A stretch of DNA of 50,323 nt from Candidatus Woesebacteria bacterium (GTDB taxonomy: Bacteria; Patescibacteriota; Microgenomatia; UBA1406; GWC2-37-13), in contig JAGQLS010000010.1 in NCBI GenBank assembly GCA_020429045.1, forward strand, positions 1 to 50,323, read 5' to 3'. Positions within the stretch are counted from its first letter, which is position 1; each line of letters starts with the position of its first letter. Below the pieces are notes generated by a model. That model saw nothing but the letters and a program-made list of their open reading frames with translations. It had not been told where the DNA came from and ran no database searches. The position numbers were made by a program, and so were the translations under genes. Of the stretch, positions 223 through 46,992 are shown piece by piece.

Positions 223-247
223 AAGAAACAGAAAAAATTTGAATATG

Positions 248-320
248 TGCCGAGGATCAGAGTCGAACTGATATCTGAGGTTTTTCAGACCACCGCCGTG
301 ACCACCTTGGCTACCTCGGC
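248..320 (-). tRNA. tRNA-Phe(GAA)
   Basis: Folding the minus strand gives a 7-bp acceptor stem (GCCGAGG with CCTCGGC), discriminator A, a 5-bp T stem (ATCAG/CTGAT) with loop TTCGACT, and an anticodon loop CTGAAAA with anticodon GAA. The anticodon stem has one T-T mismatch (28-42). CCA is not encoded. A tRNA-Leu reading was considered because of the sequence start, but there is no long variable arm. The 5' end overlaps the last codons of the GIY-YIG gene at 311-565. Confidence 0.88.
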
Positions 321-565
321 AAAGACTTAAACAACATGTTATATATTACTTCATGACCCCTTCCTGATTTATAAAATTTTTCTTTCTTAAAAGCTTCTTC
401 TTCTGTTATAAACGCTTCATAATATAGCAATTTAAACGGTTTCCTTGATTTTGTTGATTTACTTTTTCCGCTATTATGTTCGACTAAACGTTTTTTTAAA
501 TTATTTGTCGAACCAATGTATAACTTGTCATCTTTATACGATTGTAAAATATATACATAGTTCAT
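311..565 (-). CDS. GIY-YIG single-domain nuclease (UPF0213/YhbQ-like), inserted at tRNA-Phe
   Basis: This 84-residue protein is a single GIY-YIG nuclease domain. It has the YVYIL strand at residues 3-8, then YIGSTNNLKKRLVEHN, which carries the second half of the motif and the catalytic-type Arg (KKRL). A Glu follows in the AFKKEKFYKSGRG helix. Small stand-alone members of this superfamily are common, but their cellular role is poorly defined; relatives include homing endonucleases and UvrC. The gene lies between two copies of the tRNA-Phe 5' region. Its last codons, LPR-stop, are read from the first 11 bases of the intact tRNA-Phe gene, so its TAG stop is tRNA sequence. There is no separate promoter space: upstream lies the broken tRNA copy at 578-623, so transcription from the tRNA promoter is likely (inference). 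Confidence 0.85.
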   Translation of the reverse strand: MNYVYILQSYKDDKLYIGSTNNLKKRLVEHNSGKSKSTKSRKPFKLLYYEAFITEEEAFKKEKFYKSGRGHEVIYNMLFKSLPR

Positions 566-577
566 ATTATTTTTCTA

Positions 578-623
578 GTGACCACCTTGACCTCCGATTC
601 GGAGGTCTTGGCTACCTCGGCAA
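578..623 (-). repeat. Partial duplicate of the tRNA-Phe 5' region, split by a palindrome
   Basis: This segment repeats the 25 bases at 298-322 (the first 23 bases of tRNA-Phe plus two upstream bases). It is interrupted by an 18-base insertion at 590-607. The two copies flank the GIY-YIG gene as direct repeats. Identity stops sharply at the position equal to tRNA base 23, where the GIY-YIG leader begins. Confidence 0.8.
589..607. repeat. Palindromic element inserted in the tRNA copy
   Basis: GACCTCCGATTCGGAGGTC is an inverted repeat with 8-bp arms and a 3-base loop. Compared with the intact tRNA, an 18-base insert (590-607) is bracketed by TTG at 587-589 and TTG at 608-610, where the intact sequence has one TTG. 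This looks like a short target-site duplication. A related core (CCGAATCGG) occurs at 46956-46992. Confidence 0.7.
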
Positions 624-648
624 TTCCTATGTTTAAAATCTATTGATG

Positions 649-721
649 TGCGTCTGGATGGATTCGAACCATCGACCCCCATTTTATAAGAATGGTGCTA
701 CTACCACTGAGCTACAGACGC
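649..721 (-). tRNA. tRNA-Ile(UAU)
   Basis: The minus strand folds into a perfect cloverleaf: acceptor GCGTCTG/CAGACGC, D stem GCT/AGC, anticodon stem CCATT/AATGG, T stem GATGG/CCATC, and discriminator A. The anticodon loop is CTTATAA, giving anticodon UAU, which reads the isoleucine codon AUA. The U12-A23 pair agrees with known tRNA-Ile identity elements. CCA is not encoded. Most bacteria instead read AUA with a lysidine-modified CAU anticodon, so this is a rare type. Confidence 0.85.
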
Positions 722-819: not shown

Positions 820-1554
820 ATGCTCGAATTTAAAGATGGAGTTTGTAACTTTTTTTCCTTTTTATCAAAAAAAAAGAGGCGTAAAGAACTTACCCCGATA
901 GAAAGTATAAATCAATTATTTGATAATTTTCTTCAACAATATAGAAATGTTGACATCTTTCCAACTGATGAAAATATCGATCGAGTGTGGATTGATAATA
1001 AAAAAAGATCTCCTGAAGATAAAATTGATAATCCCCGACTAAGTTATGCTTTCTTTGACAAGCTGAAAAGATTATTAAATAATGTACCTTCACGCCATAG
1101 AATTATAATAGATTTGATCTTAAATCAGCCATCTCTGCATTATGAAATGGAACTTCGTCAAATATTAGAACAATCTGGTGTATTACAACAATCTCAAACA
1201 GAGTGTACAATAATTATTCAAGCTAATTATGACGCCAGAAATTATATCGGTGTCGCTAATACGACAGATAGTAGAAATGCAGTTTTGAGCGGGGTGGCAA
1301 GGTCGGCATTTGGAAGAATACAAATTTCTCATTATTTTGATAGAGATGGCAATACTGTCGGCATAACAGATTGCTTAGAAGTCAATCTAAACGGATATCC
1401 TTTTGACATGGATAGAGCAGGGCATTTATTTATTCCTCCATGGGTAATCAAAAGTGTTTCAATTTCAAACAACCTTAACTTACCTTTGACACCTGGATTT
1501 GATTCAGATATAAATGTTCCGTATACAATAAGTCCCTGGGAAAACTTAGAATAA
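820..1554 (+). CDS. Unknown protein, 244 residues
   Basis: The family is not recognised. The product is soluble with no membrane segment. It has a basic stretch (KKKRRKE, about residues 17-23), an acidic helical middle, and a C-terminal half rich in beta-type sequence, such as the region around ARSAFGRIQISHYFDRDGN and a motif HLFIPPWVIKSV. The gene is AT-rich compared with the atp operon downstream and points away from all its neighbours, so it stands alone. Its start is supported by the extended -10 box 7 bases upstream. Base composition and isolation suggest horizontal acquisition or a lineage-specific gene, but function cannot be assigned. Confidence 0.65.
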   Translation: MLEFKDGVCNFFSFLSKKKRRKELTPIESINQLFDNFLQQYRNVDIFPTDENIDRVWIDNKKRSPEDKIDNPRLSYAFFDKLKRLLNNVPSRHRIIIDLILNQPSLHYEMELRQILEQSGVLQQSQTECTIIIQANYDARNYIGVANTTDSRNAVLSGVARSAFGRIQISHYFDRDGNTVGITDCLEVNLNGYPFDMDRAGHLFIPPWVIKSVSISNNLNLPLTPGFDSDINVPYTISPWENLE

Positions 1555-46859: not shown

Positions 46860-46992
46860 CGAATAAATCGAAACTTGTAACTCGTAACTTACACCTTAAA
46901 ACGTATAATGTGAAGCGAAGATACCCTATTTTCGAAGGCCTGCCCGCCTTGCCCACCGAATCGGCGGGTGAATCGGCGGGCGAATCGGAGGG
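46860..46992. repeat. Intergenic repeat tract with 12-bp tandem units
   Basis: The tract begins with AACTTGTAACTCGTAACTT-type words. It contains a 25-base segment (46898-46922) found in inverted orientation at 40797-40821. It ends in three 12-bp units (46957-46968, 46969-46980, 46981-46992) of the form cGAATCGGcGGG next to CCCGCC-rich sequence. It resembles a decayed palindromic repeat element. Confidence 0.65.

Follow-up and report, generated by a model that had tools for sequence, protein, structure and literature searches.

Small GIY-YIG nuclease cassettes at tRNA genes of candidate phyla radiation bacteria: a likely homing-type mobile element that requires no intron

Introduction

Genomic islands and prophages that integrate into tRNA genes duplicate part of the target gene and leave the gene whole. 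Here we analyze a cassette consisting of a GIY-YIG nuclease open reading frame (ORF), a hairpin and a partial tRNA gene copy, which is located ahead of tRNA-Phe in a 50,323-nucleotide (nt) stretch of Candidatus Woesebacteria DNA (contig JAGQLS010000010.1, positions 1 to 50,323; hereafter, the window). Unlike the tRNA-integrating islands and prophages, which typically occupy the 3' ends of tRNA genes and are much larger, the window cassette spans ~330 bp with one gene and lacks an integrase ORF.

Three described systems are close to this arrangement. The GIY-YIG nuclease SegB of T-even phages (T4/T6) cleaves within phage tRNA genes, driving the region's inheritance and amplification (PMC13096335). 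Like the cassette nuclease, SegB is encoded by a free-standing gene adjoining tRNA genes; the cassette, however, is cellular, encodes a protein of ~85 amino acids (aa), and lies directly in the tRNA gene, with a hairpin and either a partial or a substitute tRNA alongside. The fungal mitochondrial mORF elements (atp6 of Allomyces; atp6, atp9, cox2 and nad3 of Glomus) combine an endonuclease ORF with a replacement gene end, so that the target gene still works while the native end persists as a remnant, and lateral acquisition has been proposed (PMC3630166). These elements affect the 3' ends of mitochondrial protein-coding genes, whereas the cassettes affect mostly the 5' ends of bacterial tRNA genes and carry hairpins in the remnant. 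Finally, bacteria of the candidate phyla radiation (CPR) harbor rRNA insertion sequences with GIY-YIG or LAGLIDADG ORFs, including non-intron GIY-YIG inserts in rRNA genes that have been described as outside the homing context, with no mention of tRNA (PMC11270868). The host group is the same, and one locus collected here (L073; G008:C248, ~183,700-184,000) is a GIY-YIG ORF within a sequence resembling the 5' part of 23S rRNA; in the described inserts, the rRNA is interrupted, whereas an intact tRNA is kept at the cassettes. Group I introns with homing endonucleases also selfishly occupy tRNA genes, but none was matched at the window cassette. The elements described here combine traits of SegB, mORF and the CPR rRNA inserts in bacterial tRNA genes and probably are a homing-type variant; the open-licence papers searched contained no account of tRNA-linked GIY-YIG cassettes in CPR.

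A nuclease cassette at tRNA-Phe in the window

The cassette is located on the minus strand and, in the direction of transcription, the order is tRNA-Ile(TAT), a broken 5' copy of tRNA-Phe, the GIY-YIG ORF and the intact tRNA-Phe(GAA):

648-721, minus strand: tRNA-Ile(TAT), just upstream of the cassette (ARAGORN)
578-621, minus strand: interrupted 5' tRNA-Phe copy, upstream of the ORF (sequence; local and spliced alignments)
621-607 and 585-578, minus strand: segments of the 5' copy corresponding to tRNA nt 1-15 and nt 16-23, respectively (alignments)
586-606, minus strand: 21-nt insert ACCTCCGAATCGGAGGTCAAG in the D-arm of the 5' copy (sequence)
607-589, minus strand: perfect 19-nt palindrome GACCTCCGAATCGGAGGTC, overlapping the 21-nt insert and the adjoining base
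311-565, minus strand: single-domain GIY-YIG nuclease ORF, 84 aa (PF01541, E 5.5e-18)
247-320, minus strand: intact tRNA-Phe(GAA) (ARAGORN; Rfam RF00005, 60.6 bits)

The original prediction, made from the sequence alone, described a single-domain nuclease gene flanked by direct repeats of the first 23 bases of tRNA-Phe, with an intact tRNA restored downstream and the stop codon of the nuclease supplied by the tRNA. Nearly all of this stands: the ORF ends with a TAG (313-311) that coincides with tRNA nt 8-10, and nt 1-23 are indeed copied, but the repeat is not continuous, being split after nt 15 by the hairpin insert. The best ungapped block of the direct repeat is 17/17 (score 34, compared with 23.5 for the top of 100 shuffles), and spliced alignment recovers 13/13 and 12/12 matches on either side of the insert. 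The end of the 5' copy is separated by 12 nt from the ATG of the ORF, and the RNA fold of the leader has a z score of -2.9. The duplicated segments enclose the 84-aa ORF alone, with no tyrosine or serine integrase gene in the window element. Rfam search of the locus detected tRNAs alone, besides one sub-gathering match on the opposite strand of tRNA-Ile. An intron-borne element was accordingly rejected, with no Rfam intron match at the window cassette and a group I intron in a tRNA at a single other locus (L006, see below). The arrangement recurs at dozens of other tRNAs, which excludes chance as its origin.

The window protein consists of one GIY-YIG domain with the catalytic Tyr, Arg, His/Tyr and Glu residues of the superfamily; across 25 aligned proteins, Y5, Y16, G18, R26, H30 and E62 are invariant. 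In a Foldseek search with the AlphaFold2 model (predicted local distance difference test, pLDDT, 90.7), the top match is UPF0213 (1zg2), followed by SLX1, with I-TevI further off.

tRNA-linked cassettes in the same and other genomes

The genome from which the window comes (G000, 1.19 Mb) contains nine GIY-YIG matches, five of which lie directly 5' of a same-strand tRNA, namely, Phe (the window), His (L004), Glu (L005), Leu (L007) and Asn (L006). In all five, the ORF follows a partial 5' copy of the respective tRNA that carries a hairpin within or next to its D-arm. ARAGORN detects the tRNA at four of the five cassettes; the fifth (L006; G000:C54, ~89,600-90,230) is an Asn-like tRNA hidden by a group I intron (RF00028, E 6e-23) within it, with the hairpin-containing GIY-YIG cassette located just upstream.

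Relatives of the window protein are present in 52 of 57 genomes of the same class. All loci were collected by searching for the nuclease, so cassettes lacking it would be missed. Among the loci read in these genomes, a tRNA lies just downstream in 33 cases and just upstream in 25, and on the opposite strand in none. When 84,980 species genomes were scanned independently with the Phe-clade alignment, 80 loci were obtained, mostly from CPR phyla but also from Omnitrophota, Planctomycetota and Elusimicrobiota, with a same-strand tRNA downstream in 30 cases, upstream in 27, and again none on the opposite strand. The closest matches carry the name Candidatus Roizmanbacteria, suggestive of a Roizmanbacteria-like CPR member as the host of the window.

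In the pooled set of 152 GIY-YIG loci (listed duplicates removed), a tRNA occurs within 160 nt at 93, compared to ~1.6% expected by chance, a figure derived from the tRNA density of the window's own genome. All 105 tRNA associations in this set are on the same strand. The downstream target tRNAs represent 18 amino-acid types, and 23 of 57 ORFs stop inside the tRNA, often at the TAG of nt 8-10. The layout with a partial copy, hairpin, ORF and intact tRNA is found at many isotypes, in CPR phyla and Omnitrophota. The original prediction proposed looking for the same family with 5' duplications at other tRNA genes, and it was found there. A viral or phage origin was considered and rejected: 50,697 phage records contained no match, and IMG/VR yielded no confirmed relative.

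Anatomy of the cassettes

The common, 5' form of the cassette consists of tRNA nt 1 to k1, a hairpin, tRNA nt k1+1 to k2, the ORF and the intact tRNA. In this layout, the 5' copy is split by the hairpin, the leader of the intact copy gives way to the ORF, and the intact tRNA sequence itself is unchanged. In many loci, the tRNA sequence picks up exactly past the hairpin. Examples include L070 (21/21 matches, a 44-nt hairpin insert, 17/17), L154 (21/21, a 21-nt insert, 10/10), L142 (15/15, a 26-nt insert, 20/20) and L160, where CCTGCCTGCCGGCAGGCAGG is inserted between tRNA nt 21 and 22. For several loci (L004, L044, L045 and others), the automatic spliced alignment split in the leader, and sequence displays were used instead. 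The k1 position is mostly in the D-arm and, at times, in the anticodon loop (Trp). The hairpin insert is a regular part of the element.

A mirror, 3' form is found in L016, L017 and L067, where the intact tRNA comes first. The ATG of the ORF overlaps the 3' end of this tRNA or directly adjoins it, and a hairpin-bearing 3' copy follows the ORF. The suggestion that the element targets the 5' part of tRNA-Phe is too narrow: mirror versions exist, and the targets are tRNA genes generally, with sub-lineages for individual tRNA species.

Cassettes can be stacked: L028 has two ahead of tRNA-Gln, and in G004, tRNA-Ser is preceded by a series of 357-bp units. This series comprises ~13 tandem units (each with the tRNA-Ser 5' part, a hairpin and the nuclease ORF) with identical match scores, located at a contig end; the intact tRNA-Ser is at another contig end. 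The loci concerned are L048/L103 (G004:C2:1-4645), L019/L102 (G034:C1) and L055 (the end of G004:C3). The series results either from amplification or from an assembly effect.

Some cassettes are decaying, with a frameshifted ORF in L007 and frameshifted or stopped ORFs in L009, L049 and L070. In at least L004, L014, L058 and L094, extra, hairpin-disrupted tRNA copies follow the intact tRNA. Such copies could be misannotated as functional tRNAs; the third, hairpin-disrupted tRNA-His copy of L004 (G000:C22:115307-115398) is called tRNA-Arg(tcg) by ARAGORN.

Occupied and empty sites and nuclease lineages

For tRNA-Val, tRNA-Tyr and tRNA-Phe, relatives within one genus include genomes in which the site is occupied and others in which it is empty, as expected of a homing endonuclease. 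The tRNA-Val site is occupied in G036 (L057), and in G007, the same 600-bp upstream flank (73% identical) runs into a plain tRNA-Val. The tRNA-Tyr site is occupied in G007 and plain in G036, where other sequence is inserted upstream. The tRNA-Phe site is occupied in G036 and G006, and plain in G007 and G035; tRNA-Ile also adjoins other tRNA-Phe loci, both occupied and empty. The 5' duplication, whose presence at empty sites would argue against a cassette, is absent from every Val, Tyr and Phe empty site compared. In the tRNA-Val pair, the promoter-like upstream sequence lies ahead of the broken copy when the site is occupied; therefore, the cassette sits between the promoter and the intact tRNA. 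Both the occupied and empty sites and this promoter-like flank support the original idea of a self-propagating cassette that targets a tRNA gene behind its promoter.

In the tree of the nucleases, all five Val cassettes, which come from families f1, f2 and f9, form one clade (Shimodaira-Hasegawa-like approximate likelihood ratio test, SH-aLRT, 97), and all five Phe cassettes, including both 5' and 3' versions, form another (93) that also includes one long-branched Pro row. Thus, as with homing endonucleases, one lineage is found at each cognate site in distant hosts, that is, in three families for Val and across genera for Phe. Proteins of cassettes at the same tRNA are more alike (0.52 vs 0.43; 0 of 5000 permutations), and in pairs at different tRNAs, hairpin similarity tracks protein similarity (rho 0.35; 0 of 2000), host kinship being not separately controlled in either comparison; in the latter, the L120 hairpin was entered 4 nt too long, which affects that row alone. 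On reading by eye, the Val hairpins of different genomes are recognizable as a single element, in which L057 carries one compensatory pair change.

Replacement of tRNA-Val(GAC)

In the complete, single-contig genome G053, the native tRNA-Val(GAC) is split at the locus L206/L047, and both fragments are disrupted by hairpins. The order is the native tRNA-Val 5' fragment (GGACGAC...) with a hairpin, the nuclease ORF, a complete tRNA-Val(GAC) and the native remnant, in which GAGCGTTTCATTGAC, a hairpin and TGACATTGAAAAGG...GTCC continue the native gene. The complete tRNA-Val(GAC) has a different acceptor stem (GCGCGCA). The tRNA-Val(GAC) pattern is found once in this genome, in the intact copy, which apparently is the sole intact tRNA-Val(GAC) there. 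Because the intact gene differs from the native fragments and the pattern is unique, the tRNA in use here is not the original. The combination of an endonuclease, a replacement part and a native remnant is that of the mORF gene hybrid, a likeness of architecture that carries no claim of membership.

Discussion

These observations point to an undescribed family of selfish elements on tRNA genes. We consider it likely that these are small, homing-endonuclease-like mobile cassettes whose invasion of tRNA genes involves no intron. Such a cassette combines the GIY-YIG nuclease ORF with a hairpin and part of the target tRNA gene; with the tRNA promoter on one side and the intact tRNA on the other, it is probably cotranscribed with the tRNA, judging by its position and strand. 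Most likely, the nuclease would cut alleles of its tRNA gene that lack the cassette, and repair templated by an occupied allele would then copy the cassette in. In the broken copy, the cleavage site would be disrupted by the hairpin, and tRNA function is kept via the duplicated, displaced part or via a substitute tRNA, both arrangements being seen directly. The origin of new target specificities also might belong to this homing account, which is the most economical one.

Several observations weigh against homing. A tRNA was not detected by ARAGORN within 160 nt at 59 of the 152 pooled loci, and in a second class, the ORFs are downstream of tRNAs at a distance of 60-150 nt, with long hairpins in the interval and no tRNA duplication seen (L022, L024, L027, L036, L038, L040, L054, L062, L068, L071, L076 and L077). 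The empty and occupied pairs for Val, Tyr and Phe are at the genus rather than the strain level, and the nuclease tree was built from 90 columns and includes many open forks. Unlike the I-TevI-type enzymes, the window protein has no DNA-binding module outside the catalytic domain. Furthermore, the intact tRNA-Phe of the window is nearly identical to the empty-site tRNA-Phe of a relative (L191), and the homing account does not explain how it would escape the nuclease.

An alternative source of mobility would be a transposase or integrase that acts in trans and inserts the cassette with long target duplications, the GIY-YIG ORF being a passenger. The duplicated tRNA nt 1 to ~20-40 resemble target-site duplications, and similar palindromes are dispersed in the window's own genome; yet the GIY-YIG ORF is the sole gene in the cassettes read (among loci found via the nuclease search), the hairpin co-varies with the nuclease, and the lineages follow the target tRNA, as expected from nuclease specificity, so that we regard this explanation as improbable. 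Highly unlikely, in our judgment, is an activity on RNA, or an addiction or defence module, whereby the nuclease would cut tRNA and the hairpin-bearing fragments would serve as decoys or antidotes. The buildup of hairpin-bearing tRNA-like copies around some cassettes and the strand shared by the ORF, the fragments and the tRNA would fit such a module, as would partial PADLOC matches to PDC-S14 and UzuA. However, these matches span ~32 residues at E 7.5e-05 or weaker, there is no partner gene, and among the nearest folds, UPF0213, SLX1 and I-TevI, the latter two are DNA nucleases. A defence system was rejected, the PADLOC matches being weak and partial.

That the ORF is a host gene whose place next to tRNA genes is maintained through vertical descent, for example, for tRNA regulation, with the partial copies being incidental, can be given very little credence. 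The tRNA-Ile to tRNA-Phe order is common to several relatives, regardless of whether the site is occupied or empty, but the empty sites among members of one genus contradict vertical descent, as do the finding of a single nuclease clade at a given tRNA across different host families, the targeting of nearly all tRNA isotypes and the existence of decayed copies. Although the records are mostly metagenome assemblies, the probability of an assembly or binning artefact is negligible, being contradicted by the same layout in large contigs of many independent assemblies, including the single-contig genomes G007, G025 and G053.

Beyond homing proper, the elements might act as a natural cleave-and-rescue drive, in which the nuclease destroys the native tRNA gene, the cassette tRNA keeps the host alive, and the tRNA genes become addicted to the element. 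The state of tRNA-Val(GAC) in G053 is the predicted end state of such a drive, an extension that we put forward as tentative and on balance doubtful. Still less likely is that the hairpin, with the flanking tRNA fragment, provides a nucleic-acid guide for the nuclease.

If the preferred reading, homing without an intron, is correct, the reduced genomes of CPR bacteria host an abundant class of minimal, one-gene mobile elements whose targets, the tRNA genes, are short, conserved and mostly essential, and a selfish gene can live inside tRNA genes without splicing. This would help account for the numerous single-domain GIY-YIG genes in CPR genomes as well as for some odd tRNA-like pseudogenes, and would provide a set of very small nucleases the site preference of which can be compared between clades.

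Other features of the window and its genome

A 244-aa ORF without a Pfam match (820-1554, plus strand) adjoins the cassette. A dispersed palindromic repeat with CCGAWTCGG cores, which resembles the cassette hairpins, occurs 15 times in the window's own genome, compared with one occurrence for the reversed control; its sites include ~46953-46967 of the window as well as L084, L086, L087, L088 and L091.
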